Shown one piece after another: positions 2,447 through 23,907 of a stretch of 64,000 nt of DNA. The stretch comes from a virus. Within the stretch, counting starts at the first letter, position 1; each line of letters starts with the position of its first letter. The stretch lies in IMG/VR virus record IMGVR_UViG_3300021057_000274, positions 62,001-126,000 of that record; one strand, given 5' to 3'. The position numbers and the translations under genes are program-made. A model generated the notes under the pieces. The model was given only the letters and a program-made list of their open reading frames with translations. It ran no database searches and had not been told where the DNA came from.

Positions 2447-2713
2447 ATGAAGACTCTCGCCGAGGAAAAGATTCTCACCGTCTTCGACTGGAGAGATCCG
2501 TCGACTCTCCCAAGCGCGGCCGGGCTCTACGAGCGCCGAACGAAGCTGGGAGTCACCGTCGATTATTGGGACGGTGAGGCGTGGTATCGCGCTGGCAAGA
2601 CGAGCGAGCCCCTCATCAAGTGCGCCAACCAACACATCTTTCCTTGGCGCCGATATCTCGTAGCTAAGAACGCGCTGTATCGTCCGCTCGAGGGGATCAT
2701 CATCCGGCGGTGA
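2447..2713 (+). CDS. hypothetical protein, 88 aa
   Basis: Not recognised. Pattern of a small soluble domain (GLYERRTKLG, VDYWDGEAWYRAG). No Shine-Dalgarno: the ATG sits about +1 of the promoter at 2411-2439, so translation is probably leaderless. Ends in GTGA overlap with the acyltransferase. Confidence 0.65.
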   Translation: MKTLAEEKILTVFDWRDPSTLPSAAGLYERRTKLGVTVDYWDGEAWYRAGKTSEPLIKCANQHIFPWRRYLVAKNALYRPLEGIIIRR

Positions 2714-3339
2714 GATACGGGCGCGAGTACCTCGTCGGGTTTCTCCTGAGATGCGTCGTCTGGGTGTTGATGCACGTCGTCTATCGTCTTACCAAGGTTG
2801 GAGTTGAGAACATCCCGAAGCGTGGCCCGGGGGTCATCGTTTGCAACCACGTCTCGTTTCTCGATGCTCTCGTGATCACGGCCGCTTGTCCGCGTCCGAT
2901 CCGCTGGGTGATGGACCATCGCATCTACCGCACCCCAGTGATGAGCTGGCTCTTCAAGCTGTTGCGTGCGATCCCGATCGCGCCTGAGCGCGAGGACCGA
3001 GAGACCCTAGAGAGAGCTTACGACCGCATCGCTAGAGCCTTGGACAAGGGAGAGCTAGTCGGGATCTTCCCAGAGGGGCGCTTGACCAACACCGGTGACA
3101 TCCTCGAGTTTCGTGGCGGGGTGATGAGAATTCTCGAGCGCTACCCGGTCTACGTCGTGCCGATGGCGCTCTCGGGTCTGTGGCGCAGCCTGTTCGCGCG
3201 CAATCCCGAGAAGTACCGGTGGTGGACGCGAATCTGGCCGCGCGTGCGCGTAGTTGTCGGCGAGCCTGTCCCGCCTCTCGGAGTGACGCCTCAGATGTTA
3301 CACACGATCGTCGCTGGATTGAGAGGGGCTTGGAGATGA
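2710..3339 (+). CDS. plsC: 1-acyl-glycerol-3-phosphate acyltransferase-like protein (PlsC family)
   Basis: About 209 aa. Shows the acyltransferase blocks in order: NHVSFLD (the HxxxxD catalytic motif, residues about 46-52), a basic block, then FPEGRLT (block III, glycerol-phosphate binding) near residue 120 and a Pro-containing block IV. A hydrophobic N-terminal segment (LVGFLLRCVVWVLMHVVY) should anchor it in the inner membrane. The family moves an acyl chain onto lysophosphatidic acid in phospholipid synthesis. In a phage it would be an auxiliary metabolic gene that changes membrane lipids during infection (inference). GTG start overlaps the previous TGA. Length fits the family. Confidence 0.85.
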   Translation: MRYGREYLVGFLLRCVVWVLMHVVYRLTKVGVENIPKRGPGVIVCNHVSFLDALVITAACPRPIRWVMDHRIYRTPVMSWLFKLLRAIPIAPEREDRETLERAYDRIARALDKGELVGIFPEGRLTNTGDILEFRGGVMRILERYPVYVVPMALSGLWRSLFARNPEKYRWWTRIWPRVRVVVGEPVPPLGVTPQMLHTIVAGLRGAWR

Positions 3340-3383
3340 GTGGTGAGAACGCTCTCCGTAGCGCGTTAGGAATTCCGAACTAG
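3336..3383 (+). CDS. 15-aa ORF
   Basis: ATGA overlap with the acyltransferase stop; encodes MSGENALRSALGIPN. Only the overlap architecture supports it. Confidence 0.3.
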   Translation: MSGENALRSALGIPN

Positions 3384-3398
3384 CTCTTCAAAAAGTAG

Positions 3399-3427
3399 TT
3401 TACCTTTGAAAAGAGCTGTGATATATT
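3399..3427 (+). promoter_or_regulatory. sigma70-like promoter for the structured RNA/TerD unit
   Basis: TTTACC 3399-3404, 17 bp, TGATATATT ending 3427. Predicted start at about 3434, directly at the 5' arm of the first RNA stem. Confidence 0.75.
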
Positions 3428-3433
3428 CTTCCT

Positions 3434-3640
3434 CGCGGTGGCTATTGGTCGGGTTACTCCCACACATGCCAGCGGCGACGCCCCTCGGGGCTAGCCGCTA
3501 CCAATCACTTGGTCAGATCTCCATCGCTTTAGCGTCGCCCGGTGATCGAGGGTTCGACTCCCTCGCGGCGCTCCTGCAACGGCTATAGGTCGGGTTACTC
3601 CCATCCTTCATGCGAACACTTGGCCTAATCTTCCGTTGCA
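3434..3640 (+). ncRNA. tandem structured RNA, Y-RNA-like, with a tRNA T-arm minihelix
   Basis: Two related modules flank a tRNA-like minihelix. Module 1 is closed by a 7-bp stem, 3435-3441 with 3521-3527 (GCGGTGG/CCATCGC). Module 2 is closed by 3576-3582 with 3633-3639 (GCAACGG/CCGTTGC). The stems differ in sequence yet keep pairing, which is compensatory evidence for RNA. Both share GGTCGGGTTACTCCC after the 5' arm and CACTTGG before the 3' arm. Between them, 3531-3538 pairs with 3565-3572 and encloses a canonical T-arm (GAGGG, loop TTCGACT, CCCTC) but no D or anticodon arm. Bacterial YrlA Y RNAs are also tRNA mimics with a T-arm; that assignment is inference. It could instead be a 5'-leader regulator of the gene at 3663. 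Confidence 0.6.
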
Positions 3641-3662
3641 AACAATTCTCCACGGAGGCACC

Positions 3663-5876
3663 GTGACACAGCTCTCGAAGAACATCGTCGCCCTGTCCAA
3701 GGGCCTGGTCGTGATCCCGCGGGGATCTGGCCTCAAGATGCAGTTGCGCGAGGACGTATACGCGGCCTCCCTCCAAGCGTCGCTGATGCAGCTCGGCTAC
3801 ATGCTGAGCCGCGAGGCGTACGCCCTCGCCCTCTCGGCGCCGGCCGAGTGGGTCAAGGAGTTCTACGACGAGGCGATCCCGTACCTCAAGGAGGCGGTCG
3901 GGGCGAAGCGCGACTACCGTGCGATGTATCGCAACTTCCCCCAGCAGGTCATGGACCTGTCACACGTCGATCTGTTCATCAACGCGATCACTCACTATTG
4001 GTCAAACGGCCAGTGGGAGCCGCCGCACGAGCTAGCTGAGCGCGGCGTCAAGTTCGAGAGCACCGAGTTCAAGCTGCTGAAGCCGATCGACGAGGCCGGT
4101 TTTCTCAACCTCTTCACCCAGATGGTGGCGATCGGCCAAGCGCTCACTCCTCAAGACCGCAAGATCGTCGAGTGGTTCATCGACTCGGGGCTGAAGCTCA
4201 CCCTGCCAGAGACGATCCCGTTCAAGGAGACCCTGTGCCTGCTCGCTGCGAAGGGTCTCAACGTTCCGGTGAAGACTCCGACCGACGTGCTCCGCATCGC
4301 GGTTCACCTGTCTGGCGGTGACATCTCGCTGCCGGGCATCCCGTCGGCGAAGGTGAAGGCGCCGACCGGTGGCCGCTACTCCTCCGCTCGCTATTGGGAG
4401 ACCTACTATCGAGAGAGCGCCGAGAGAGCCGCGGCCGCCGCGCGCGAAGCGTTCAAGTTCAGGAAGTTCAAGCGACCGCAGCGACGCCTGCTGCTCGAGA
4501 TGCTTGACCGCGTCGCCGACGTCGCCGAGATGCAACGCTACCTCGGCCGCTGGCTCCGTCTGGGTGAGATCCTCCACCCGGGCGAGTTTGCCGGAAAGTT
4601 CCCACGCGCCCACGCGGCGTTCAAGACCCTTCGTAACCAGGAGGGACCAGACACTCGAGTCCGCACGTTCGACGCGCAGGTCAACCTCGCTTTCGCCGCG
4701 AGCGCGAGGGCTGGTTTGAAGGTTTTGACGACCCGGCCGGGCGAGTTCGCTCGCCGCCTGGATTGGCTGCTCCGCACCCATGACGCCGAAGCGGTCATGG
4801 ACGTTTTCACCGAGATCGCGCCGCGAATCAGCTCGAAGGTGCTGTTCGAGCTGTGGACTCACCTGGTCAATCGTGAGACTCCGGGCGCGGCGCGGACGGT
4901 CATGCTCAAGGGTCGCGGCGCGAAGTTTAAGACCCTTCCGACCCTCCCGGCGCTCCCGACCGACGTCGTGCAGCTCGCGACGCGGACGATCGCTAAGGCC
5001 CTCAAGGGCAAGATCAAGGACGCGAAGCTGCCGAGCCTGGGTAACGTTTGGATCGACCCGCAGCTGGCGACCCTGCCGCTGCCAGCGTCGATGCGTGACA
5101 TGAACACCGGTCTCAAGACGTACGTTCGCGGCACCCGTCTGCCGTTCCGCGGGGACGCGAAGGTGGTTCGCGCGTTCGTGCACTGGTACGACGAGGACGG
5201 GACTCAAGACATCGACCTGAGCTTCTCGTTCCACGGCCACAGCCTGGAGGCGATGGGGCACGTCAGCTTCACGAACCTGCGCGAGGGGGCGTGGGCGGTG
5301 CACTCGGGCGACATCCGTCACCGGGTCGGCTCGTGCGCGGAGTACATCGATGTCAACATCGAGAAGGCTCGCCAGCGCGGCGTCCGCTACGTGATGGTGC
5401 ACTGCTACAACTTCAACGGTCGTCCGATGCACACGGTGCCAGAGTGCCGCTTCGGGATGATGGAGCGCGAGCACCAGCGCTCGAACGAGATCTTCGAGGC
5501 GCGCACCGTGACCAACGCGATGCCCCTGATCAACCAGGGCACCACGGTCCTGGCGTGCATTCTCGATCTCCAGGAGCGCTGCATGATCTGGGCGGACATG
5601 GAGGCGGATCGCTACCTGGCGGTCGTTGAGAACACCGCGAGCAAGGCCGCGGAGGCGATCCGCAAGCTGGTGGGTCGTCCTGCGATCTCGGTCGCCGACC
5701 TGCTGCGCATGCACGCCGAGGTGCGCGGCGAGGTGGTGCAAGACGAGGCTCGCGCAGACACGAAGTTCAAGGCCGAGGACCTGACGACGGATTACGTCAC
5801 GATCGCGGGGCTGATGTCCCTCGACGCGCCGGCCAAGAAGGCGCCGGCGTCTAAGCGAGTGAAGATCGCCGCGTAA
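3663..5876 (+). CDS. TerD-domain protein, MXAN_6230/SCO0854-like
   Basis: 737 aa. GTG at 3663 has GGAGG at 3654-3658; a longer upstream TTG reading would enter the RNA stem. Residues 1-440 are helical. The C-terminal 230 residues look like a TerD fold: acidic pattern DEDGTQDIDLSF, then HSGDI, EYIDVNIEKA, RYVMVHCYNF and ARTVTNAMPLI. I recognise the layout of the large bacterial proteins named MXAN_6230/SCO0854 family, but see no RING domain. TerD proteins bind calcium and occur in stress and phage-response operons. A vWA protein, the usual Ter partner, is encoded at 11936. Preceded by the Y-like RNA, which suggests a ribonucleoprotein (inference). Confidence 0.6.
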   Translation: MTQLSKNIVALSKGLVVIPRGSGLKMQLREDVYAASLQASLMQLGYMLSREAYALALSAPAEWVKEFYDEAIPYLKEAVGAKRDYRAMYRNFPQQVMDLSHVDLFINAITHYWSNGQWEPPHELAERGVKFESTEFKLLKPIDEAGFLNLFTQMVAIGQALTPQDRKIVEWFIDSGLKLTLPETIPFKETLCLLAAKGLNVPVKTPTDVLRIAVHLSGGDISLPGIPSAKVKAPTGGRYSSARYWETYYRESAERAAAAAREAFKFRKFKRPQRRLLLEMLDRVADVAEMQRYLGRWLRLGEILHPGEFAGKFPRAHAAFKTLRNQEGPDTRVRTFDAQVNLAFAASARAGLKVLTTRPGEFARRLDWLLRTHDAEAVMDVFTEIAPRISSKVLFELWTHLVNRETPGAARTVMLKGRGAKFKTLPTLPALPTDVVQLATRTIAKALKGKIKDAKLPSLGNVWIDPQLATLPLPASMRDMNTGLKTYVRGTRLPFRGDAKVVRAFVHWYDEDGTQDIDLSFSFHGHSLEAMGHVSFTNLREGAWAVHSGDIRHRVGSCAEYIDVNIEKARQRGVRYVMVHCYNFNGRPMHTVPECRFGMMEREHQRSNEIFEARTVTNAMPLINQGTTVLACILDLQERCMIWADMEADRYLAVVENTASKAAEAIRKLVGRPAISVADLLRMHAEVRGEVVQDEARADTKFKAEDLTTDYVTIAGLMSLDAPAKKAPASKRVKIAA

Positions 5877-5880
5877 GTAG

Positions 5881-5909
5881 TTTACTTTTCGCGCGATCTG
5901 TGATTAAAT
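5881..5909 (+). promoter_or_regulatory. sigma70-like promoter
   Basis: TTTACT 5881-5886, 17 bp, TTAAAT 5904-5909. Start near 5916 leaves an 80-nt leader with a GGGTCCCGGGTGGGATC block before the ATG at 5997. Confidence 0.7.
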
Positions 5910-5996
5910 ATCTTCTACCGTAGTGCGAATCCTGGGGTCCCGGGTGGGATCGCCAGCCATCGAGACGATTTTTCAACGAACCAAGTGGAGAACGTT

Positions 5997-9565: not shown

Positions 9566-9643
9566 AGCGGAGTGGAGCAGCCCGGTAGCTCGTTGGCCTC
9601 ATAAGCCAAAGGTCGTTGGTTCGAATCCAACCTCACGCAACCA
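9566..9643 (+). tRNA. tRNA-fMet(CAT), initiator type
   Basis: Anticodon loop CTCATAA, D-arm GGAGCAGCCCGG and GGTCGTTGG as in bacterial initiators, unpaired position 1 against A72, encoded CCA. The 3' acceptor strand has one extra A (CTCACGCA), giving a bulge. Confidence 0.8.
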
Positions 9644-9649
9644 GCTCAG

Positions 9650-9760
9650 CACCTTCCCCGAGGTGCAAAGCTAACTAGCGGTGGATCGCTAGCACAATCT
9701 GAAAAATCAGTCGTTTCTCCACCTAAGCACAAACGACCGTCGGACGCTGTAACCGACATT
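9650..9760 (+). other. hairpin-rich inter-tRNA spacer
   Basis: No tRNA. Contains consecutive perfect small hairpins: GCACCT/AGGTGC, CTAGCG/CGCTAG, CTGA/TCAG, CGTTT/AAACG and GTCGG/CCGAC. Confidence 0.5.
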
Positions 9761-9762
9761 TT

Positions 9763-9836
9763 GCGGGTGTGGTACAATGGTAGCATGCAACCTTGCCAAG
9801 GTTGAGACGAGGGTTCGATTCCCTTCACCCGCTCCA
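9763..9836 (+). tRNA. tRNA-Gly(GCC)
   Basis: Acceptor GCGGGTG with its complement, anticodon loop TTGCCAA (U33), T-loop TTCGATT, encoded CCA. Confidence 0.9.
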
Positions 9837-9837
9837 G

Positions 9838-9894
9838 TAGGTAGTTGTAAAAGGTCGACCGCCCACATGGGGCGGCGGATTTGAAGGTACCTAC
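9838..9894 (+). other. spacer stem-loop closed by a perfect 7-bp stem
   Basis: GTAGGTA pairs with TACCTAC and encloses CCGCCC-ACAT-GGGGCGG. It lies exactly between two tRNA-Gly genes. Confidence 0.45.
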
Positions 9895-9899
9895 GCAGT

Positions 9900-9970
9900 G
9901 CGGGTGTAGCTCAATGGTAGAGCAACTGCCTTCCAAGCAGAAGACGGGGGTCCGATTCCCCTCACCCGCT
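9900..9970 (+). tRNA. tRNA-Gly(TCC)
   Basis: Acceptor GCGGGTG, loop CTTCCAA with anticodon TCC, T-loop TCCGATT. The genome continues CCG, so CCA is not encoded. Confidence 0.88.
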
Positions 9971-9972
9971 CC

Positions 9973-10046
9973 GAGGTTGTCGTCTAAGTGAAGACGCTGG
10001 GGCCCCAAAATCTCCAGAAACGGTGGTTCAAACCCATCCGACCTCG
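9973..10046 (+). tRNA. tRNA-like, oversized anticodon loop
   Basis: 7-bp acceptor GAGGTTG/CGACCTC, D-stem GTCT/AGAC and T-arm GGTGG-TTCAAAC-CCATC all form. The anticodon arm CTGGGG/CTCCAG leaves a 9-nt loop CCCCAAAAT with no U33, so the isotype is undecided. Confidence 0.5.
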
Positions 10047-10048
10047 CC

Positions 10049-10116
10049 GATGCTGGAGTTCAAACGCGAAGCCGGTTTCCGGAGCTAGCTCAACCTGAAC
10101 TCGCAGCAGAAGCATC
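10049..10116 (+). other. structured inter-tRNA element
   Basis: Closed by GATGCT/AGCATC (10049-10054 with 10111-10116); inner GAGTTCA/TGAACTC (10056-10062 with 10096-10102). No anticodon or T-loop. Confidence 0.4.
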
Positions 10117-10171
10117 ACAGGGTTGGGGGTTTCGCGGACCTCTGTGTTTCAAGAGCTTTGCTGATGCGTCT

Positions 10172-10247
10172 GGGGAAGTAGCTCAGCTGGGAGAGCGCAA
10201 CGTTCGCAACGTTGAGGTCGAGGGTTCGATCCCCTTCTTCTCCACCA
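10172..10247 (+). tRNA. tRNA-Ala(CGC)
   Basis: Acceptor GGGGAAG with complement, anticodon loop TTCGCAA, T-loop TTCGATC, encoded CCA. Confidence 0.9.
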
Positions 10248-10251
10248 CGTT

Positions 10252-10298
10252 AGTCCCGTAACTAGTACTCGGGACAGTGATCGGTGAGACTCCGATCA
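10252..10298 (+). other. two perfect spacer hairpins
   Basis: GTCCCG/CGGGAC (10253-10258 with 10270-10275) and TGATCGG/CCGATCA (10278-10284 with 10292-10298) fill the gap between two tRNA-Ala genes. Confidence 0.45.
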
Positions 10299-10302
10299 AG
10301 TT

Positions 10303-10378
10303 GGGGCCTTAGCTCAGCTGGGAGAGCGTATGCATGGCATGCATAAGGTCAAGGGTTCGATCCCCTTAGGCTCCACCA
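10303..10378 (+). tRNA. tRNA-Ala(GGC)
   Basis: Acceptor GGGGCCT, anticodon loop ATGGCAT, T-loop TTCGATC, encoded CCA. Confidence 0.9.
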
Positions 10379-10425
10379 ATCGCGCACTGAGCGGAGACGC
10401 TTGGGGCGAAAGAGGGTTCAAAGCT

Positions 10426-10504
10426 GGTGCTGAGAAGTCGGGGTAAGAGCTAACGCCCAACCCGAGAACCTCAGGATGATGCTCGCTTTGATTGCGTTAG
10501 CACC
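10426..10504 (+). other. tRNA-sized structured element
   Basis: GGTGCTGA pairs with TTAGCACC and the 3' end reads ACCA, as in a tRNA. The interior has TCGGG/CCCGA but no recognisable anticodon arm or TTCGA loop. Confidence 0.35.
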
Positions 10505-10506
10505 AA

Positions 10507-10581
10507 GCGGAATTAGTTCAGTGGCTAGAACGAGAGCTTCCCAAGCTCAAGACGCGGGTCCGATTCCCGCATTCCGCTCCA
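10507..10581 (+). tRNA. tRNA-Gly(CCC)
   Basis: Acceptor GCGGAAT/ATTCCGC, loop TTCCCAA, T-loop TCCGATT, encoded CCA. Confidence 0.88.
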
Positions 10582-11587: not shown

Positions 11588-11985
11588 TGGGAAGCCGAAG
11601 CCAGCGGCGACGCGATCGCCTCGGAATCCGGGCGACCGGACACACTCCTGAGGGAAAGCAGGTCATGGGCGGGATGTTCAAGCTCGTCAACGAGCACGGC
11701 GTGCCGCTCTCGATCCTGCTCTTCAAGCTTGACGAGAGCGGTTGCGTTCTAGACTGGCAAGACTTCGTGCAAGACGCTCTAGAAGCAGGTTGGACGATCA
11801 AGGGTCTCACCTCACGGGTTGAGGAAGCTCTGATCGACAGCTCGTACAACAAGATCTCGCGTGACGAGATCTTGAGCAGGTTGAAGTTACTCGTCGTAAA
11901 GCTCTACGCCGAGACACAAGAAAGTGAAAAATTCCATGCCAAAGCGCATAAACATCAAGCCGGTCAAGAAGACCAAAACTCCTAA
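11587..11985 (+). CDS. hypothetical protein, 132 aa
   Basis: Not recognised. GTG at 11587 overlaps the preceding TAG. N-terminal basic stretch then an acidic helical body (LDWQDFVQDALEAGWTIKGL). Its last 50 nt overlap the vWA gene start. Confidence 0.6.
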   Translation: MGSRSQRRRDRLGIRATGHTPEGKQVMGGMFKLVNEHGVPLSILLFKLDESGCVLDWQDFVQDALEAGWTIKGLTSRVEEALIDSSYNKISRDEILSRLKLLVVKLYAETQESEKFHAKAHKHQAGQEDQNS

Positions 11986-12679
11986 GCTCACTCGCATCCT
12001 CTTCGTTCTCGACGAGTCGACCTCGATGGGATCGGTTCGCAACGAGACGATCGCAGGTTTCAACACCTTCCTCGAGGAGCAAAAGAAGATCAAGGGGAAG
12101 GCGACGATGACCCTAGTCAAGTTCAGCTCGGCCCCAAAGATGGTCTTCTCGAACGTTCCGATCGAGCACGTCCAACCGCTCGATCACACGACGTTCACCC
12201 CAAACGGATGGACGGCGCTCTACGACGCGGTCGGCGATGCGATCACGAGCTGCGGTGACCTCAAGCCGAAGGGCGTCAAGACGATCCTCGCGATCCTGAC
12301 CGACGGCGAGGAGAACAAGAGCTATCGCTTCTCGTTCGAGCGCATCACGGCGATGCTCAAGGAGTGCCAGGGCAACCCGAGCGAGCCCTGCGCAGATGAC
12401 TGGGAGGTGCTCTACCTCGGGTCACAGATGGGTGCGCGCCAAACCGCGATCGACATGGGCATCAAGCTCCAGAACGTCGCCGCGTTCGACGTCGGCGCCA
12501 AGGGCATGTCCGACGCGATCAAGACGATGTCGGCGACGGCCTCGTCCTACCGCGGAATCGACCAGAACATCGGTGGAGTCTTCTACGCCGCCGGCGCGGT
12601 AGACACCCAAGCGATGTACGAGACGATCAAGAAGGAGATCACGACCACAACCGTAACGACGAAGAAGGCCGACAAGTAA
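11936..12679 (+). CDS. von Willebrand factor A (vWA) domain protein, TerY/TROVE type
   Basis: 247 aa from the ATG at 11936; an in-frame GTG at 11924 would add four residues. MIDAS motif DESTSMGS near residue 26, then TFTPNGWTALYDAV with the Thr, and ILAILTDGEENKS with the second Asp. All three metal-ion-dependent adhesion elements are present. vWA proteins of this kind pair with TerD proteins, so it may work with the TerD-like protein at 3663 (inference). The 5' end overlaps the previous gene. A strong hairpin follows. Confidence 0.75.
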   Translation: MPKRINIKPVKKTKTPKLTRILFVLDESTSMGSVRNETIAGFNTFLEEQKKIKGKATMTLVKFSSAPKMVFSNVPIEHVQPLDHTTFTPNGWTALYDAVGDAITSCGDLKPKGVKTILAILTDGEENKSYRFSFERITAMLKECQGNPSEPCADDWEVLYLGSQMGARQTAIDMGIKLQNVAAFDVGAKGMSDAIKTMSATASSYRGIDQNIGGVFYAAGAVDTQAMYETIKKEITTTTVTTKKADK

Positions 12680-12757: not shown

Positions 12758-13708
12758 ATGAGCAATTCCTACAACCTTCAATTTCAGAAGGATCGGACCT
12801 TTCTCAAGGCCTACATGTTGGGGAGAGGATACTCCCTCGGGCTCAAGGCTCTCGGCTTCTCAGAGCGACACCACACCGGACTCAGGAAGGACAAGCAGAC
12901 CCCGGAGTTTCATCACCAGGTTCAGATCGCTCTCTCGGTTCTCGATCTCAAGGGGCTCATCAACGAGGAGCTCGCGATCGTCATCGCTCTCCTCCATGAC
13001 GTTCAGGAGGATCACCGCGTTCCGACCGAGGCGATCCGCCGCGAGTTTGGCGACGATGTCGCCTCCGTCAACTGGAAGATGACCAAGAAGTTTGTCGAGA
13101 CCGACGGCACGCTCACGGTCAAGGACAGAGAAGCTTACATCATCGATCTCTCACTTGACGCGACTGGTTCGATCGTCAAGGGGCTTGACCGAGTCAACAA
13201 TCTTCAGACGATGATCGGCGTCTTCACCGTCGAGAAGATGCAGAGCTACGCCGACGAGGCGGAGACGATCTTCCTCCCGATGCTGAAGAAGGCGTCGAAG
13301 CACTTCCCCGAACAACATCACGCGTATCAGGCCGTGCAGCAAACGATGAAGCGCCAGCTCAAGTGGATTCGCGCTTACATCGACTTGCACCAGCGCCTCG
13401 AAGCTCACATCGATCATGTCGAGATGGAGCACGAGGCAACGATCGTAGAGCGAAACGCGGCGCTAAAGACGAACGCTGATTTGCGTCACTTCACAGAAAC
13501 TCTTCAAGAGAAAAATCGAGGACTCGCAGAGATTGCCGCCAAAGGGGTGACGGAAATAAACCGCGCGCTGATTCGTGCCGTTGCTAAAGCGCTTCTCGAG
13601 AACCGCGTGACAGGTGACAAGCATGACAGCGTCTTACAGCGTCTTGCATGGCGTCATGCGCGAGCTGGGCATCTCCGAGCTCGAGATGATCCAATTTCGC
13701 GACGATAA
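12758..13708 (+). CDS. SpoT-like (p)ppGpp hydrolase domain protein
   Basis: 316 aa. Residues 1-190 match the RelA/SpoT HD hydrolase: ERHHTGLRKD, FHHQVQIAL, LLHDVQED (HD metal pair) and KGLDRVNNLQTM (the later Asp and Arg). This is the size of small alarmone hydrolases and no synthetase domain follows; the rest is a coiled-coil-like tail. Expected reaction: ppGpp to GDP plus pyrophosphate. In infection it would lower the stringent alarm (inference). The last 28 residues look unnatural and overlap a better small ORF at 13623, so the native C-terminus may differ. Leaderless start. Confidence 0.8.
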   Translation: MSNSYNLQFQKDRTFLKAYMLGRGYSLGLKALGFSERHHTGLRKDKQTPEFHHQVQIALSVLDLKGLINEELAIVIALLHDVQEDHRVPTEAIRREFGDDVASVNWKMTKKFVETDGTLTVKDREAYIIDLSLDATGSIVKGLDRVNNLQTMIGVFTVEKMQSYADEAETIFLPMLKKASKHFPEQHHAYQAVQQTMKRQLKWIRAYIDLHQRLEAHIDHVEMEHEATIVERNAALKTNADLRHFTETLQEKNRGLAEIAAKGVTEINRALIRAVAKALLENRVTGDKHDSVLQRLAWRHARAGHLRARDDPISRR

Positions 13709-18748: not shown

Positions 18749-18824
18749 GCGCCTGTAGCTCAGTGGAGAGAGTGCCGCGCTACGAACGCGGAGGTCGGGG
18801 GTTCGATCCCCTCCAGGCGTGCCA
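18749..18824 (+). tRNA. tRNA-Arg(ACG)
   Basis: Acceptor GCGCCTG with complement, anticodon arm CCGCG-CTACGAA-CGCGG, T-loop TTCGATC, discriminator G, encoded CCA. Confidence 0.92.
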
Positions 18825-19028
18825 GAGGTTAAGTCGATGACCTCGATGTAACACCTAGAAGTCGACAACGCCGGTGAATCAGGGCGTGGGGAACCAAGTA
18901 CTGGTTGGATGCTGAAATGAAGCCGCGGTTTTACCCTTAAGCGCGGTGGATGACTGAGAAAGGGCGCTGTAGCCGGTCTAGCATGGGTGTCGAAGTCGAC
19001 TCCCCCTCGATCGGAGCGGTGACAAGAT
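18825..19028 (+). other. 204-nt inter-tRNA spacer without a gene
   Basis: No convincing ORF or complete tRNA. Contains GAGGT/ACCTC and CCGCG/CGCGG pairings only. Confidence 0.3.
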
Positions 19029-19100
19029 ACGCCCGCCGATGGATTTTCGGCGCCAGGTCTTCTAAACCAGGATAGGAGGGTTCGATTCCTTCCGGGCGTG
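19029..19100 (+). tRNA. tRNA-Arg(TCT)
   Basis: Acceptor ACGCCCG/CGGGCGT, anticodon loop CTTCTAA, one mismatch in the anticodon stem, T-loop TTCGATT. CC but no A encoded. Confidence 0.75.
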
Positions 19101-19103
19101 CCT

Positions 19104-19177
19104 TCCCACATAGCTCAATGGTAGAGCCGCTGGTTGTGAACCAGATTGCCCGGGTCCGATTCCCGGTGTGGGACCCA
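19104..19177 (+). tRNA. tRNA-His(GTG)
   Basis: Acceptor TCCCACA/TGTGGGA, loop TTGTGAA, discriminator C typical of tRNA-His, encoded CCA. Confidence 0.88.
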
Positions 19178-19193
19178 GTAGTTGCAGTTCAAT

Positions 19194-19286
19194 TCCTCGG
19201 TACTCTAACGGTAAGAGACCTGGCTGTTAACCAGACGTATCCCGCCACCGAGCGGTATGGAGGTTCGAGTCCTCCCTGAGGAGCCA
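19194..19286 (+). tRNA. tRNA-Asn(GTT) with a long variable arm
   Basis: Acceptor TCCTCGG/CTGAGGA, loop CTGTTAA, T-loop TTCGAGT, CCA. The variable region holds an extra CCGC/GCGG hairpin of about 18 nt, which tRNA-Asn normally lacks. A canonical tRNA-Asn follows directly. Confidence 0.7.
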
Positions 19287-19289
19287 AAT

Positions 19290-19364
19290 GGGTGCGTAGC
19301 TCAGTGGTAGAGCGGGAACCTGTTAAGTTCCGGGTCGAAGGTTTGATTCCTTCCGTGCCCTCCA
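19290..19364 (+). tRNA. tRNA-Asn(GTT)
   Basis: Acceptor GGGTGCG, anticodon arm GGAAC-CTGTTAA-GTTCC, T-loop TTTGATT, encoded CCA. Confidence 0.9.
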
Positions 19365-19374
19365 CAATTCAGTA

Positions 19375-19441
19375 ACCGGGAAGTCCTAGTGACGTATTGC
19401 CGCGGCTGCCATCGTTGGCACGTAGGCTAGGACTTCCCGGT
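19375..19441 (+). repeat. 15-bp perfect inverted repeat between tRNAs
   Basis: ACCGGGAAGTCCTAG (19375-19389) and its exact complement (19427-19441) enclose 37 nt. Likely an RNA stem long enough for RNase III, or a protected spacer. Confidence 0.8.
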
Positions 19442-19454
19442 AGAAGTACAACAT

Positions 19455-19530
19455 TGGCTCATTGATGAATGGGTTATCATACTACCCTGTCACGGTAGGT
19501 TAGCGGGTTCGAGTCCCGCATGGGTCGCCA
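19455..19530 (+). tRNA. tRNA-Asp(GTC)
   Basis: Acceptor GGCTCAT/ATGGGTC with wobbles, anticodon arm CTACC-CTGTCAC-GGTAG, T-loop TTCGAGT, G73, encoded CCA. Confidence 0.85.
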
Positions 19531-19534
19531 AAAT

Positions 19535-19615
19535 GCGCTTCGGGAGGTTGAATCTCAACAGGTCGGGTCGCTCCCGTCTGTAAAACATGGGTTAAATTCC
19601 TGTGGAAGCGCGCCA
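19535..19615 (+). tRNA. tRNA-like with CCA; possible tRNA-Tyr(GTA)
   Basis: Perfect acceptor GCGCTTC/GAAGCGC and GCCA end. The region CTGTAAAAC could hold a GTA anticodon, but no regular 7-nt loop forms. Also contains GGTCGGGTCGCTCCC, close to the motif shared by the RNA modules at 3441 and 3582. Confidence 0.4.
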
Positions 19616-19660
19616 AAATTAGAGGCTGACGATTCTGGGCGGCAATCTAGAGTCGGCGGT

Positions 19661-19766
19661 TTGTCGTTGAGGGTGGCTCCTCAGGACCCCGAGTAGGACG
19701 GTGAGATCTTGCCGGATCGAGCCGTTTGAAACGGGTCCTGTCGGTGGTTCGATTCCACCACGACTT
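19661..19766 (+). tRNA. oversized tRNA-like gene, expanded anticodon arm
   Basis: Helices in cloverleaf order: GTCGT/ACGAC, D-arm TGAGG-GTGGCT-CCTCA, GGACCC/GGGTCC (19684-19689 with 19733-19738) and T-arm GGTGG-TTCGATT-CCACC. The GGACCC arm encloses 43 nt instead of 7. Isotype not assignable; could be an intron-like insert. Confidence 0.45.
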
Positions 19767-19782
19767 CACTCTAACCCTCTTC

Positions 19783-19998
19783 ATGAAGCTGTGGGTAGAT
19801 CACCCTGCCACAAATCGGGTGATGAGGTCCGATCGCCTTCGTCCGTGGCATGCATGGCGCCAGGGCGATACCCCAGCAGTAACTGCGGCCGTCACCGAAC
19901 TTTATGCGAGAAAGTTCAGCGGTGACGAGGAGGAGGCGAACTGCTCGTTCAGTTGTCCCATTCGTCTAGTGGCTAGGACACAACCCTTTCAAGGTTGA
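19783..19998 (+). CDS. doubtful small ORF, 71 aa
   Basis: From the ATG at 19783 (MKLWVDHPATNRVMRS). The first 60 residues look protein-like; the end runs into tRNA-Glu at 19955, which no bacterial gene needs. No Shine-Dalgarno seen. Confidence 0.25.
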   Translation: MKLWVDHPATNRVMRSDRLRPWHAWRQGDTPAVTAAVTELYARKFSGDEEEANCSFSCPIRLVARTQPFQG

Positions 19999-20029
19999 GA
20001 ACGGGGATCGAAACCCCGATGGGACACCA
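19955..20029 (+). tRNA. tRNA-Glu(TTC)
   Basis: Acceptor GTCCCAT/ATGGGAC, anticodon loop CTTTCAA (U33), D-arm TTCGTCTAGTGG typical of Glu, encoded CCA. Confidence 0.92.
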
Positions 20030-20033
20030 CTAT

Positions 20034-20109
20034 CTGGGTGTAGGTCAGCGGCGAGACTGCCTGGTCCGGAGCCAGGAGGCCGTGGGTTCGAGTCCCACCA
20101 CCCAGACCA
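20034..20109 (+). tRNA. tRNA-Pro(CGG), C33 type
   Basis: Acceptor CTGGGTG/CACCCAG, stem CCTGG/CCAGG with loop TCCGGAG, giving anticodon CGG after C33. A CCG (Arg) reading would need a shifted stem. Encoded CCA. Confidence 0.65.
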
Positions 20110-20149
20110 AAGCGGCCCCCAGCGCCGCTCTAAGCCGAGGCTGGGGCAT

Positions 20150-20225
20150 CGGAGAGTCGCCTAGCGGCTATGGCGCCTGCTTTGGGAGCAGGATACCGTG
20201 GGTTCGAGTCCCACCTTTCCGACCA
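20150..20225 (+). tRNA. tRNA-Pro(TGG)
   Basis: Acceptor CGGAGAG, anticodon arm CCTGC-TTTGGGA-GCAGG with normal U33, encoded CCA. Confidence 0.9.
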
Positions 20226-20235
20226 ACACATCAAT

Positions 20236-20310
20236 CGCTTCTTGGCGGCAAGCTGCCGTGCTCCCACTAGAAGGGAGAGCGAGGAGGTTCACGCCCTCCA
20301 GGAGCGACCA
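20236..20310 (+). tRNA. tRNA with anticodon TAG (Leu-type reading), C33
   Basis: Acceptor CGCTTCT/AGGAGCG, anticodon stem CTCCC/GGGAG, loop ACTAGAA. Position 34-36 reads TAG, which would decode CUA. It lacks the long variable arm of tRNA-Leu and U33 is C, so isotype is uncertain. Encoded CCA. Confidence 0.5.
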
Positions 20311-20311
20311 C

Positions 20312-20385
20312 GGGTCCGTAGTTCAATGGTAGAATGTTACCTCGACACGGTAGAGACGAAGGTTCGATTCCTTCTGGACCCACCA
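20312..20385 (+). tRNA. tRNA-Val(GAC), C33 type
   Basis: Acceptor GGGTCCG/TGGACCC, stem TTACC/GGTAG, loop TCGACAC, T-loop TTCGATT, encoded CCA. Confidence 0.75.
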
Positions 20386-20391
20386 AAATTT

Positions 20392-20465
20392 GGGCTACAA
20401 GCTTTAAGGTGAAGCATCTGGCTCTTACCCAGAAGAACGGGGATCATTACCCCGGTAGCCCACCA
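20392..20465 (+). tRNA. tRNA-Lys(CTT)
   Basis: Acceptor GGGCTAC/GTAGCCC, anticodon arm TCTGG-CTCTTAC-CCAGA, T-loop ATCATTA, encoded CCA. Confidence 0.85.
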
Positions 20466-20468
20466 GCA

Positions 20469-20617
20469 TTCGGTAGTGACCTAACGTTCAGGACGAAAGG
20501 AATCGTGCGGTCGCCCTAGTACCAGCTCTGGGTGACTAAACGGAGTCGAGTAGGCCTGCTCGCAAAAGGGATCGGTCAGGGACTGGTACTCCAGAGGTTC
20601 GACTCCTCCTACCGGAC
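20469..20617 (+). tRNA. giant tRNA-like gene, 149 nt
   Basis: Acceptor TTCGGTA/TACCGGA, D-stem GACC/GGTC, an 8-bp arm AGTACCAG/CTGGTACT in the anticodon position enclosing nearly 60 nt, and T-arm AGG-TTCGACT-CCT. Cloverleaf order kept, loops greatly expanded. Isotype unknown. Confidence 0.45.
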
Positions 20618-20625
20618 TAAACTAG

Positions 20626-20702
20626 GGTTCTTTAGCTCAGATGCGTAGAGCGCCGAGCTTACACCTCGGATGTCGGGGGTTCAAGTCCCTCAGGAACCAC
20701 CA
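20626..20702 (+). tRNA. tRNA-Val(TAC)
   Basis: Acceptor GGTTCTT/AGGAACC, anticodon arm CCGAG-CTTACAC-CTCGG, T-loop TTCAAGT, encoded CCA. Confidence 0.9.
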
Positions 20703-20704
20703 AT

Positions 20705-20780
20705 GGCGATGTGGTGAACTGGCTATCACGCGGCTCTCATAAGGCTGAGTAGACGGGATCGAAACCCTCCATCGCTACCA
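20705..20780 (+). tRNA. tRNA-Met or tRNA-Ile2 (CAT)
   Basis: Acceptor GGCGATG/CATCGCT, anticodon loop CTCATAA, encoded CCA. Elongator Met and lysidine-modified Ile cannot be told apart by eye. Confidence 0.8.
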
Positions 20781-20782
20781 TT

Positions 20783-20876
20783 CTAGGAAGTTGGGACTGC
20801 TCAAGCGGACGGAGTCCGGTAGCCCTCGCGGGGAGACCAATGAGTTGTGGTTCGATTCAACGCCTAGCTTTTATTG
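20783..20876 (+). other. tRNA-like remnant
   Basis: T-arm TGTGG-TTCGATT-CAACG and a partial acceptor CTAGG/CCTAG, plus GGACT/AGTCC, but no anticodon arm. Confidence 0.35.
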
Positions 20877-20881
20877 CGCTT

Positions 20882-20956
20882 CCCTCATTCGTCTAATGGT
20901 CAGGGCCCGTGCTTGATAGGCGCGTGACGGTGGTTCGATTCCATCATGAGGGACCA
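20882..20956 (+). tRNA. tRNA-Ile(GAT)
   Basis: Acceptor CCCTCAT/ATGAGGG, stem CGTGC/GCGCG, loop TTGATAG (U33), encoded CCA. Confidence 0.88.
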
Positions 20957-20957
20957 A

Positions 20958-21040
20958 CAGCAGCCGAGAAGCAGGCCCGTCGGTCGGTTAGAGAGCCTTC
21001 CGCACGTGCGCTCCGTGAAGCCACGGCAAACGGACTGCTG
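20958..21040 (+). other. structured inter-tRNA element
   Basis: CAGCAG/CTGCTG closes the element; CCGTG-AAGC-CACGG inside. No anticodon or T-loop. Confidence 0.4.
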
Positions 21041-21046
21041 CATTAT

Positions 21047-21121
21047 CAGGGTGTAGCTCAGTGGGAGAGTGCTACGTCGGGAACGTAGAGGCCGCAGGTT
21101 CAATCCCTGCCACCCTGACCA
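21047..21121 (+). tRNA. tRNA-Pro(GGG), C33 type
   Basis: Acceptor CAGGGTG/CACCCTG, anticodon arm CTACG-TCGGGAA-CGTAG, T-loop TTCAATC, encoded CCA. Confidence 0.85.
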
Positions 21122-21224
21122 ATAGCTGGCTTGCAAGTGACGAGAGGTCATCATGCTTCGGAGCGCACGCTGGGGATAAGCTCCCAGCGCAGCGACCTAG
21201 ACGGCAAGCTGGCGGGCCTTATTT
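21122..21224 (+). other. inter-tRNA spacer with hairpin
   Basis: No gene. Contains GCTGGG-GATAAG-CTCCCAGC and CTTGC/GCAAG pairings. Confidence 0.35.
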
Positions 21225-21295
21225 CAGAGCGTAGCGTAGTGGTAGCGTACCTGGCCTGGAACCAGGAGGTGTTGGTTCGATTCCAGCCGCTCTGA
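21225..21295 (+). tRNA. tRNA-Pro(TGG), C33 type
   Basis: Acceptor CAGAGCG/CGCTCTG, stem CCTGG/CCAGG, loop CCTGGAA. Reads TGG after C33; a GGA (Ser) reading would require a shifted loop, and A73 favours Pro. CCA not encoded. Confidence 0.6.
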
Positions 21296-21302
21296 CCGGG
21301 GG

Positions 21303-21390
21303 AAGATGTAGGTTCGAATCCTATCCAATGGCCATAAGCCCGTGAGGGTGGCTGGCAGGTAGCTCAACCGGCAGAGCAGCTCCCCTTTCT
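21303..21390 (+). other. tRNA fragments in inverted order
   Basis: A 3'-half-like piece (GTAGG-TTCGAAT-CCTAT, ending near 21335) comes before a 5'-half-like piece (TAGCTCAACCGGCAGAGCA, about 21358-21376). GGGG and CCCC could form an anticodon stem, but acceptor strands do not pair. Confidence 0.35.
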
Positions 21391-21467
21391 GGTACATTAG
21401 CTCATGGGGTTAGAGCGCGCGCCCGATAAGCGCGGGGTGGAAGGTTCGAGTCCTTCATGTACCACCA
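21391..21467 (+). tRNA. tRNA-Ile(GAT), C33 type
   Basis: Acceptor GGTACAT/ATGTACC, anticodon arm CGCGC-CCGATAA-GCGCG, T-loop TTCGAGT, encoded CCA. Second Ile(GAT) beside the U33 version at 20882. Confidence 0.85.
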
Positions 21468-21597
21468 GACAACACCGTTGCTTCTCACCGAGAGAAGCCA
21501 GCTAGCAAGCGAAGCAGACATTCGTCTAGATCACTGCGACTGGACCCGGAATCCCTCGCGTGGTGGCCGATTGTCGGCTAGGACGGATTCGTTGTCT
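21467..21597 (+). other. multi-hairpin RNA element between tRNAs
   Basis: AGACAAC/GTTGTCT (21467-21473 with 21591-21597) encloses perfect hairpins GCTTCTC-ACCGA-GAGAAGC, AGAC-ATTC-GTCT and GCCGA-TTG-TCGGC. Confidence 0.5.
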
Positions 21598-21600
21598 ACT

Positions 21601-21673
21601 GGGGGATGTAGCCGGGGCACAGGAACGCCTTGCAAGCGATCCGCGATGGGTTCAACTCCCATATCCTCCACCA
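21601..21673 (+). tRNA. tRNA-Ala(TGC)
   Basis: Acceptor GGGGGAT/ATCCTCC, loop CTTGCAA, T-loop TTCAACT, encoded CCA whose A may be shared with the next element. Confidence 0.8.
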
Positions 21674-21774
21674 GATCTTTAGCTCAAACGGGTAAGAGCG
21701 GCGGGACAGATAACCCGCGTCAAGGTGAGCTACGGCGAGCCGAGTGCGGCGACCCCATGCCGTAAGATCTACCA
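21673..21774 (+). other. tRNA-like with normal D-arm but no TTC loop
   Basis: AGATCTT/AAGATCT acceptor and ACCA end, D-arm AGCTCAAACGGGTAAGAGC, anticodon arm GCGGG/CCCGC with an 8-nt loop ACAGATAA. The T-arm is replaced by TACGGC/GCCGTA. Confidence 0.4.
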
Positions 21775-21778
21775 AACT

Positions 21779-21849
21779 GGGCTGTTAGTTTAGCGGGAAA
21801 ACACTGCGCTTGCACCGCGGAATCCGGGGTTCGACTCCCCGACGGTCCA
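21779..21849 (+). tRNA. tRNA-Ala(TGC), second copy
   Basis: Acceptor GGGCTGT/ACGGTCC, anticodon arm CTGCG-CTTGCAC-CGCGG, T-loop TTCGACT. CCA not encoded. Confidence 0.82.
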
Positions 21850-21869
21850 CCCACAGATAGGAGATGATC

Positions 21870-22052
21870 ATGTTACCGATCGACGAAGCTGTCAAGCTCA
21901 CCGACATGGATGAGCTGGGTCGTGAGGAGTGGGAGCGTCTCTTCATCTCGACGAACCCGATGTGGAACGTCAGCCCGACCGAGGTCATGAGCGAGGTCAG
22001 AAGGTTGGGTGAACGTCGTAAGGAGCTCCTCAAGGGAGTTCGCTGGTTCTAA
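21870..22052 (+). CDS. hypothetical protein, 60 aa
   Basis: AGGAG at 21859-21863 fits the ATG at 21870 better than the ATG at 21864. Acidic, helical (DEAVKLTDMDELGREEWERL). Sits inside the tRNA array, so it is co-transcribed with tRNAs. Not recognised. Confidence 0.6.
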   Translation: MLPIDEAVKLTDMDELGREEWERLFISTNPMWNVSPTEVMSEVRRLGERRKELLKGVRWF

Positions 22053-22057
22053 GCTGT

Positions 22058-22131
22058 TGGGGATTGGTGAAATGGTATCATGTGAGATTCTGACTCTCAA
22101 GTCGTAGGTTCGATTCCTACATCCCCTGCCA
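22058..22131 (+). tRNA. tRNA-Gln(CTG)
   Basis: GGGGAT/ATCCCC acceptor with weak first pair as in tRNA-Gln, anticodon arm TGAGA-TTCTGAC-TCTCA, G73, encoded CCA. Confidence 0.85.
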
Positions 22132-22180
22132 CACAACGTCCCTCCACGCCTCTCAACGATGCGCACCCAGGAGGGCCTCT

Positions 22181-22253
22181 GTGCCTCAGACCAATCTGGT
22201 GATGGACCGAGCCTGAAAGCCTCGGAAGCTCGGTTCGATTCCGAGGGGGCACA
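22181..22253 (+). tRNA. tRNA-like, probable Phe(GAA)
   Basis: Acceptor GTGCCTC/GGGGCAC, T-arm CTCGG-TTCGATT-CCGAG. Anticodon loop CTGAAAG gives GAA but with a C31-C39 mismatch; it can also be drawn as a 9-nt loop. CCA not encoded. Confidence 0.6.
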
Positions 22254-22255
22254 CC

Positions 22256-22348
22256 GGTAGGTGGCGCTGGCGCGCGGCTGGGCCTTATAGACCCGGGAGA
22301 CTGGCCGGACTGGCTGGAACGGCGAGGGTTCGAATCCCCGACCTACCA
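22256..22348 (+). tRNA. tRNA with long variable arm, anticodon probably TAT (Ile)
   Basis: Acceptor GGTAGGT/ACCTACC, T-arm with TTCGAAT. Loop CTTATAG gives TAT with one mismatched closing pair; the variable arm is long (about 20 nt). CCA not encoded. Isotype uncertain. Confidence 0.5.
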
Positions 22349-22453
22349 CCTGTAAGAATCTCCCGAGGTTTGACCCGAGGAGTCGTTAGAGAAGATGATA
22401 TCTCGCTGGCGACGGCCAGAGAACCCCGGGGATGACAGACTCCCGGGACGATT

Positions 22454-22529
22454 GGCCCTTAAGCTAATCAGGTGAAAGCGCCGGTCTGAAAAGCCGGAGA
22501 GTCTGGTTCGATACCAGAAGGGGCCACCA
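22454..22529 (+). tRNA. tRNA-Phe(GAA)
   Basis: Acceptor GGCCCTT/AGGGGCC, anticodon arm CCGGT-CTGAAAA-GCCGG, encoded CCA. Confidence 0.9.
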
Positions 22530-22547
22530 ATACAGGAGGATCGCCAA

Positions 22548-22634
22548 ATGTTCAAAGCTTGGTGGGACAATGGGGCAACGAGAGGCTTTGGGATGCGCTT
22601 ATTCCGGAGCTGGCTTTGTGGTGATTGCTGCTAG
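22548..22634 (+). CDS. small ORF, 28 aa
   Basis: AGGAGG about 7 nt before ATG; encodes MFKAWWDNGATRGFGMRLF and a Cys-rich end, stop TAG. The strong Shine-Dalgarno is the main support. Confidence 0.4.
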   Translation: MFKAWWDNGATRGFGMRLFRSWLCGDCC

Positions 22635-22731
22635 AGCGATTCCGGACAGACAGATGACATGGAGCTGGTACTTCTTTCTCGGATTTCGCGTACGTGGAAA
22701 GCACTTAATTGATTTTCGCTGGACGAAGTAG
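22621..22731 (+). CDS. small ORF, 36 aa
   Basis: GTG at 22621 overlaps the previous ORF; or ATG at 22654. Encodes an aromatic-basic peptide (MTWSWYFFLGFRVRGKH). May be a frameshifted continuation of the ORF at 22548. Stop TAG. Confidence 0.35.
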   Translation: MIAARAIPDRQMTWSWYFFLGFRVRGKHLIDFRWTK

Positions 22732-22737
22732 ATCTGT

Positions 22738-22810
22738 TGGGGTGAGGATTGGCATCTACGGATGGCTTTGAACCATCTCGGACACGGTTCGATTCCGTGC
22801 GCCCCTGCCA
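22738..22810 (+). tRNA. tRNA-Gln(TTG)
   Basis: GGGGTG/CGCCCC acceptor, anticodon arm GATGG-CTTTGAA-CCATC, T-loop TTCGATT, encoded CCA. Confidence 0.88.
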
Positions 22811-22966
22811 AGGTTGATGGAATGATCATCGACGCCTAGAAGAGCGTGCACGCTTCCTCCAGAGCGGCTAGACGTGAGGAGGATTTTGGATGAAGGGCTA
22901 TCCTCGTTCGATTCGAGGCGTCCTGAACGAAACGGCGCCGAGTCGGTGGAAGCCCGGCGCCTGCAT
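22811..22966 (+). other. inter-tRNA spacer with a lone T-arm
   Basis: CCTCG-TTCGATT-CGAGG is a perfect T-arm near 22905-22921, and GACGCCT/AGGCGTC can pair across the region, but no anticodon arm is visible. Confidence 0.35.
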
Positions 22967-23038
22967 GTCCCGTTGGATTTCCGGGTAGATCGCTGGGACT
23001 TCACCCCAGAGAGACGGGTTCAACTCCCGTACGGGACG
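22967..23038 (+). tRNA. tRNA-Glu(TTC), C33 type
   Basis: Acceptor GTCCCGT/ACGGGAC, anticodon arm CTGGG-ACTTCAC-CCCAG, T-loop TTCAACT, G73. Second Glu(TTC). CCA not encoded. Confidence 0.75.
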
Positions 23039-23045
23039 CCCCCAC

Positions 23046-23134
23046 GGGGCGCGACGCTGAAGACACCGCCGCGGGCTCAACGCTAGGCCACCGCGGTAAG
23101 ACTTCGGGGCGGACGGTTTCCGCGCGCTCCACCA
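23046..23134 (+). other. tRNA-like element with acceptor and CCA but no T-loop
   Basis: GGGGCGC/GCGCTCC acceptor followed by A and CCA. CCGCGG/CCGCGG arm inside; no TTCGA loop and no 7-nt anticodon loop. Confidence 0.35.
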
Positions 23135-23151
23135 AATGATACAATAGCTAG

Positions 23152-23907
23152 ATGCTCTACGTAGGAACCAGCGGCTTCCAGTACAAGCACTGGAACGACG
23201 GCGTGTTCTACCCGTCTGGCGTCAAGGATCGCTTGGCGTTTCTCAGCCAACGGATGAACGCTCTCGAGATCAACGCGTCGTTCTACAGCATTCCAAAACC
23301 GGGGAGCGTGCGGCGCTGGAGCGAGAAGCTTCCGCAGAACTTCAAGCTAACGCTCAAGGCTCCTCGGTCGGTCACGCACCGACGTCGCCTCAAGCTGCGG
23401 AGCGACCCGACGATCAAGCAAGGCTGGGACCTCCTCCGCTACTTCTCGGAGGGCGTTCTTCAGATCGCTCCGCAGCAGCGAGGACCTGTTCTCGTGCAGT
23501 TGGAGCACAGATTTAAGATCGATCTCGACCGCTTAGAGGCCGTGCTGGAGTTCTTCAGAGTTCTCCAGCTGACCGTTGCGCTCGAGGTAAGGTGTACCTC
23601 CTGGCTTCGGATGGAGACGCTCAGGCTGCTTCGAGAGTATCGAGGCGCGTTGGTCTCCGCGGATTGGAGGGAGTGCACGGTGCCGATCTACGACACGGGA
23701 AGCTTCGTGTACGTGCGCCGCCACGGGTCGCTCGGACGATACTTCGGGTCATACTCGAGGGCCAAGCTCCAGGCTGATCTCGACGCGGTAGCGCCGTACC
23801 TAGAGCAAGGGCGCGACGTCTACGTCTTCTTCAACAATGACGGCGGCGGCGCGGCCCCGAGGAACGCAGTAAGCATGCTTAAGTTAGCAGATGTCCGATT
23901 CGTCTAG
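23152..23907 (+). CDS. DUF72 family protein (YecE-like)
   Basis: 251 aa. Family pattern from the first residues: VGTSGFQYKHWNDGVFYPSG, then LEINASFYSIPKPGSVRRW and NFKLTLKAPRSVTH. C-terminal FVYVRRHGSLGRYFGSYS and VYVFFNNDGGGAAPRNA also fit. DUF72 proteins adopt a TIM-barrel-like fold; function unknown. ATG is 6 nt after TACAAT (23140-23145), so the mRNA should be leaderless. Sits in the middle of the tRNA array; the stop TAG overlaps the leader of tRNA-Glu at 23893. Confidence 0.82.
   Translation: MLYVGTSGFQYKHWNDGVFYPSGVKDRLAFLSQRMNALEINASFYSIPKPGSVRRWSEKLPQNFKLTLKAPRSVTHRRRLKLRSDPTIKQGWDLLRYFSEGVLQIAPQQRGPVLVQLEHRFKIDLDRLEAVLEFFRVLQLTVALEVRCTSWLRMETLRLLREYRGALVSADWRECTVPIYDTGSFVYVRRHGSLGRYFGSYSRAKLQADLDAVAPYLEQGRDVYVFFNNDGGGAAPRNAVSMLKLADVRFV

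Follow-up and report, generated by a model that had tools for sequence, protein, structure and literature searches.

A tandem structured RNA and a TerD-fold protein, paired in phages and bacteria, as a candidate Y-RNA-like ribonucleoprotein

Introduction

Ro60/Y-RNA complexes are used by cells in RNA quality control, and the locus described here raises the question of whether a phage encodes a ribonucleoprotein (RNP) of similar plan around a different protein. The locus lies in a 64,000-nucleotide stretch (the window; positions 62001-126000) of the 389,331-base phage record IMGVR_UViG_3300021057_000274 of IMG/VR, where two RNA units, separated by a tRNA-like minihelix, stand immediately before the gene for a 737-residue protein. 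A sequence-only reading had taken these units for a Y-RNA-like tandem RNA upstream of a TerD-like gene and had proposed that the two may form a phage RNP. Having compared the locus with its relatives, we suggest as the best reading that the RNA-protein pair is a second, TROVE-independent Y-RNA-like RNP, which looks like an overlooked relative of Ro60/Y-RNA and in which the protein would bind the RNA. We put at roughly 70% the probability that the locus specifies a two-component RNP, made of small RNAs acting in trans and a large protein with a Ro60/TROVE-like helical domain and a TerD fold, and we predict that this protein binds the RNA.

Results

Unit 1 (3435-3527) and unit 2 (3576-3639) are both on the plus strand and follow a single plan, which reads from 5' to 3' as P1, CUA, P2 (10 bp), a short core, a loop, P2' and P1'. 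In unit 1, P1 (3435-3441/3521-3527; GCGGTGG/CCATCGC) is followed by CUA (3442-3444), P2 (3445-3454/3507-3516; TTGGTCGGGT/ACTTGGTCAG), the core UACUCCCA (3455-3462) and an inner hairpin (3471-3499), with the linker AUCU; unit 2 has the same core (3596-3603) behind its own P1 (3576-3582/3633-3639; GCAACGG/CCGTTGC), CUA (3583-3585) and P2 (3586-3595/3618-3627; TAGGTCGGGT/ACTTGGCCTA). The two modules with 7-bp stems and a shared sequence that the sequence-only reading described are present; what it had overlooked is that the shared GGTCGGGT also serves as 5' arm of the second, 10-bp helix, whose 3' arms (ACTTGGTC and ACTTGGCC) form many G-U pairs. The sequence GGTCGGGTTACTCCCA, common to both units, has exactly two copies in the window, and the third-best match has three mismatches. 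The 227-nucleotide RNA region folds 3.3 standard deviations better than its dinucleotide shuffles, none of 200 shuffles being as good.

The acceptor/T-arm minihelix reported earlier is real: it occupies 3532-3574 (plus strand) between the two units and consists, as read from the sequence, of an acceptor stem (GCGTCGC, 3532-3538, with GCGGCGC, 3565-3571), an orphan T arm (GAGGG-TTCGACT-CCCTC, 3548-3564) and a 3' UCC. ARAGORN does not call it as a tRNA, and the Rfam search gives it weak matches to T-arm families only. For the units themselves, no Rfam family accounts for either, at gathering cut-offs or at E<=10. A site resembling a promoter (TTTACC-17-TATATT, its -10 preceded by TG; 3399-3427, plus strand; one found against 0.5 expected in shuffles) places +1 near 3433-3435, the start of unit 1, as had been proposed. 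A promoter-like element, AGTAGTTTACTTTT..GATCTGTGATTAAATA, is repeated at 5874-5910 directly 3' of the gene and by eye resembles 3390-3427. The gene (3663-5876, plus strand) opens with GTG after CGGAGG and begins 23 bases past unit 2.

Homologues of the protein were found in nine other phage types, in 39 IMG/VR contigs, in 41 contigs of bacteria or archaea (where archaeal and other assignments were taken over from the metagenome bins) and on plasmids; the contig searches were run with a three-sequence alignment, and single-protein scans of viral contigs were mostly unproductive. NCBI names the bacterial relatives 'MXAN_6230/SCO0854 family RING domain-containing protein'. The unit stands beside the homologous gene in diverse phages, Bacillota, Pseudomonadota, Actinomycetota, Deinococcota and others, and among annotated plasmid relatives in Streptomyces (RING-type), Deinococcus, Variovorax, Vibrio and Niallia, so that the conservation of RNA plus gene in other phages that the sequence-only reading had offered as a check is borne out. 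The consensus of the relatives' units, whose core is more regular, is P1..GG-CUA-U..P2-UUCCUUCUA-loop-P2'-(A/C)UUU-CC..P1'; over 150 units the GG, CUA, core and CC are almost invariant and both helices vary freely. The RNA structure is conserved through strong covariation. When 23 units were aligned by MAFFT on sequence only, 94.9% of cells were paired and covariation was 0.894, whereas shuffling lowered it to 0.192 and sliding the 3' side gave no more than 0.20; the 150 units fitted to the model, an alignment that leans to the structure, gave 88.7% paired and 0.813 against 0.183. With P1-GGCUAU-P2-core-P2'-P1' beside a gene homologue, the window units and gene have the arrangement that defines the family. 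A gammaproteobacterial copy of the gene (L086, 5001-7040) has several frameshifts or stops, yet its two RNA units are intact.

A covariance model of the unit (R1) found 199 matches at E<=1 in 77 loci, all on the strand of the gene, and a stricter unit finder gave 136 matches on the gene strand and 11 on the opposite strand. Unit 1 scores 27.1 bits and unit 2 31.4 bits with R1. Because the R1 seed holds one window unit (unit 2), a second model (R2) was built without the window. With default filters R2 has no match in the window; switching the filters off brings the two window units to the top of all matches in 128 kb (both strands), unit 1 with 22.0 bits (E 8.7e-4) and unit 2 with 21.2 bits (E 1.6e-3), the next having E 0.28. 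As R2 ranks the window units at the top only with its filters off, we conclude that they are real but divergent members of the family.

The RNA and the gene are genomically linked and co-inherited. In 14 whole bacterial or archaeal genomes, each of the 27 R1 matches at E<=0.01 has the single gene nearby. Among 296 genomes of one bacterial order, for which the gene and RNA lists were compared by eye and scoring was limited to the best first-look candidates of each genome, gene and RNA each occur in 101; both are present in 99, neither in 193, and four are discordant (gene only in G199 and G330, both of which have gene fragments; RNA only in G114 and G321), which gives a Fisher p of 6e-74 with kinship ignored. 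The position of the unit relative to the gene is variable: 98 of the 163 units in 67 loci precede the gene, the other 65 follow it and none is inside it, with a median unit-gene distance of 248 bases, and 19 loci have downstream units only and 16 have both. In Salicola phage SCTP-2 a unit (E 8.8e-7) is located about 18 kb from the gene.

These positions bear on the alternative that the units are a cis-acting leader in the 5' untranslated region, regulating the adjacent gene either by binding of its own product or by sensing a ligand. In the window and in 32 of the 67 loci all units are indeed upstream on the same strand, and the window promoter puts unit 1 at +1. Conservation as an untranslated leader only, which the sequence-only reading had said would speak against an RNP, is however not what we observe, since many units are downstream of the gene. 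We suggest that the downstream units and the distant SCTP-2 unit make a general leader function unlikely and action in trans likely. Furthermore, the loops carry whole tRNA mimics, and no terminator-like site was found on the strand of the gene in the window. A leader is therefore an improbable account of the family, but the units may have such a role in individual genomes.

The 737-residue protein (phrog_33734) has a helical-repeat N-terminal domain (residues ~1-455), a TerD-fold domain (~497-661) and then C-terminal helices. Its AlphaFold2 model, built from 43 sequences, has a predicted local distance difference test score of 85.4 and a predicted template-modelling score of 0.82, and residues ~494-665 match TerD-fold structures (3ibz, 2qng, 2qz7 and 2kxt) with Z 12.7-15.8, the best being 3ibz (Z 15.8, 2.4 Å over 155 residues) and 2kxt giving Z 12.7. 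The description of the gene as TerD-like is thus upheld by the fold and not by Pfam, a scan of the protein having given no TerD match. The C-terminal domain shares its fold with the TerD domain of tellurite resistance, but in the phage it is embedded in a 737-residue protein whose gene is associated with the RNA. NCBIfam NF041916 (MXAN_6230/SCO0854 family RING domain protein) matches residues 147-693 with E 4.6e-86, although at 289.7 bits the phage protein misses the equivalog cut-off of 600 bits; the core protein is the same, the phage protein falls short of the profile in length, and the RING-type or TerD-named members of this family in Streptomyces and Deinococcus likewise have the unit beside the gene.

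A tandem RNA directly before a protein gene, in tight genomic linkage with it, would also be expected of a type III toxin-antitoxin system (ToxIN-like), where the RNA silences a protein toxin by binding it. We regard this as very unlikely for the present family: the predicted fold is a helical repeat plus TerD with no nuclease match and no ToxN-fold endoribonuclease, PADLOC gives no hit, and the units are 55-170 nucleotides long with variable stems and are often downstream.

In several relatives the loop of the unit mimics tRNA. The stricter finder gave 15 long-loop units with a T arm, and about 12 of them contain a circularly permuted tRNA, in which the T arm, the acceptor 3' strand, a short cap and the acceptor 5' strand are usually followed by a D arm and then by a stem that continues the anticodon stem; the acceptor strands pair over 5-7 bp, mostly 7/7. 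The Rfam model of YrlA (RF02553) aligns full length to two relatives (L052 and L086) with 39.3 and 34.9 bits, below its cut-off of 69, and it also has matches below the cut-off in 13 of 14 control genomes, a background for which our guess is neighbouring tRNA genes. Because YrlA matches ordinary genomes weakly too, we take the capped acceptor stem, not the YrlA score, as the evidence; the score was dropped as a classifier, and matches of 25-35 bits alone are not trusted. The minihelix of the window is another solution to the same end, as are a tRNA-like RNA with its anticodon loop cut down to a UUCG loop (L017, 3392-3524) and, in XacN1, a CCA-bearing tRNA-like RNA with a 4-base anticodon loop located between units (by eye). 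In the alphaproteobacterial phages RcXuper and RpAliso, permuted transfer-messenger RNA (tmRNA) genes are found in the unannotated stretch that holds their units (L006 1100-2440, L003 1700-2820). That the units are merely processing signals or decayed tRNA genes of phage tRNA arrays, with no dedicated protein partner, would suit the many copies beside tRNA or tmRNA genes and the tRNA-like pieces in some of them, but is most improbable given that bacterial chromosomes have units without tRNA arrays, which track the gene and not the tRNAs.

Discussion

Comparison with the known Y-type system, YrlA/Rsr (RYPER), shows a common plan. In both, the 5' and 3' ends of the RNA form a stem that closes on a tRNA-like module, the order of T arm, capped acceptor and D arm in the Rfam consensus of YrlA is the same in the relatives' modules, and the RNA gene adjoins a large protein gene, sometimes with RNA-repair genes nearby. 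The handle of the units differs from that of YrlA (GG-CUA-U, a U(C/A)CUUCUA core, helices of 7 and 10 bp), the units occur in tandem arrays and score under the Rfam cut-off, and the partner has TerD instead of vWA and no TROVE sequence signal. No TROVE (PF05731) was found in the phage record of the window or in 10 other phage records, and of 12 bacterial genomes with the system it is absent from 10 and located away from the unit locus in two. By the tests run, the family belongs to neither YrlA nor TROVE, and it is Y-RNP-like in plan.

Several observations weigh against an RNP of the Ro60/Y-RNA type. The Rfam YrlA and vertebrate Y RNA models have no match at E<=10 in 3300-3760 of the window, so that the covariance-model comparison with YrlA, proposed earlier as a check, came out negative; what stands of the label 'Y-RNA-like' is the architecture and the YrlA-style permuted tRNAs of the relatives. 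The window units have the divergent core UACUCCCA in place of the relatives' UUCCUUCUA, and no permuted tRNA-like module is found in their loops or inside their end stems, the minihelix lying between them. In the protein, Pfam finds no TROVE, and hhalign against 29 TROVE proteins does no better than a reversed control. The N-terminal domain does align with Ro60/TROVE structures (1yvp, Z 6.7 over 174 residues; 9nen, Z 6.6 over 265; 9kop, Z 5.5 over 292), but these Z values of 5.5-6.7 are within the helical-repeat background, where other repeats reach Z 7.5; the other helical-repeat structures align mostly over ~90-105 residues, compared with 174-292 for the three independent Ro60/TROVE structures. 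The model is no more than suggestive of a TROVE-like domain. Lastly, the genes neighbouring most Bacillota copies are unrelated, and RtcB, which 11 of 38 records contain and the window phage lacks, is ruled out as an obligatory partner.

If the pair does form an RNP acting in trans, the constant part of the RNA (P1-GG-CUA-P2-core) would be the handle by which the helical domain holds the RNA, with the variable loop or the attached tRNA-like piece as the effector. In such a complex, RNA-handling enzymes would be gated or tethered in the way reported for YrlA, Rsr and PNPase (PMC8394870). By analogy with Y RNAs and Rsr/Ro60, a tandem array could furnish the protein with several RNAs, which would gate it or tether partners to it, such as tRNA-processing, tRNA-modifying or decay enzymes. 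For a tRNA-rich phage, the likely use would be quality control of tRNA or other RNA, or protection against RNA-cleaving defences of the host. More tentatively, we envisage a second, independent class of Ro/Y-type RNPs across Bacteria, phages and possibly archaea, which would combine a TerD-bearing, ring-like protein with small RNAs in arrays, the loops imitating tRNA in several ways: as a permuted tRNA, as a tRNA lacking its anticodon loop or as an acceptor/T-arm minihelix. Phages might use such an RNP to handle tRNAs attacked by the anticodon nucleases of the host.

As far as the tools show, the RNA family is widespread, strongly structured and undescribed, and no description of the unit RNA was found in the literature searched. 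The passages found in a jumbo-phage review, which names TROVE and stand-alone TerD genes, do not include this RNA (PMC7824862). The uncharacterised MXAN_6230/SCO0854 protein family gains a testable function, and TerD domains, long tied to stress without a clear mechanism, are connected to RNA biology. The Y-RNA plan of a protein-binding stem and a tRNA mimic would here appear independently of TROVE, also in phages that have large tRNA arrays, and the module makes the roles of Y RNAs and TerD proteins in bacteria directly testable. A further system for comparison is the nc-tRNA with RtcB/Band-7 reportedly described by Burroughs and Aravind in 2016. A tRNA-like RNA is likewise reported to be linked to a scaffold protein there, but our units differ from simple tRNA-like RNAs, and for them RtcB is optional. 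Listeria phage P100 (DQ004855) has one weak unit match (78213-78278, minus strand; E 0.063) and no TROVE by Pfam; its relative CKA15 is reported to have noncoding RNAs of very high abundance near an Rsr-like gene, and its virions contain the protein of that gene (PMC12282133).

Neighbouring genes

Some copies of the gene have RNA-repair neighbours, namely rtcR in Variovorax, an RNA ligase in Vibrio and Thg1 in Gimesia, and in phage Weasels2 RtcB lies 3 kb from the gene. Genes for vWA and MoxR proteins adjoin some bacterial copies, for example in Streptomyces and Deinococcus. The vWA protein that the sequence-only reading had linked to the RNA exists as an open reading frame at 11924-12679 (Pfam VWA, E 1.9e-5); in this phage the link is weak, with the frame 6 kb past the gene and a tRNA cluster between them. 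It is followed by a gene for an HD_4-domain protein (12758-13708), possibly a metal-dependent phosphohydrolase.

ARAGORN finds 41 tRNA genes in the window (9570-10581, 18749-28108 and 61181-61255), which include a 93-base Asn copy and, set apart at 61181, a tRNA with a CTA (amber) anticodon. An abiF RNA (RF03085; 48 bits, cut-off 37) is located at 22140-22176 (plus strand) between tRNA-Gln and tRNA-Phe; RNAs of this family occur upstream of abortive-infection genes. The label of defence system was considered for the locus and rejected, PADLOC having given no hit. Directly 5' of the units, positions 2710-3339 encode an acyltransferase of the 1-acylglycerol-phosphate type (PF01553, E 3.6e-30), which is unusual for a phage.
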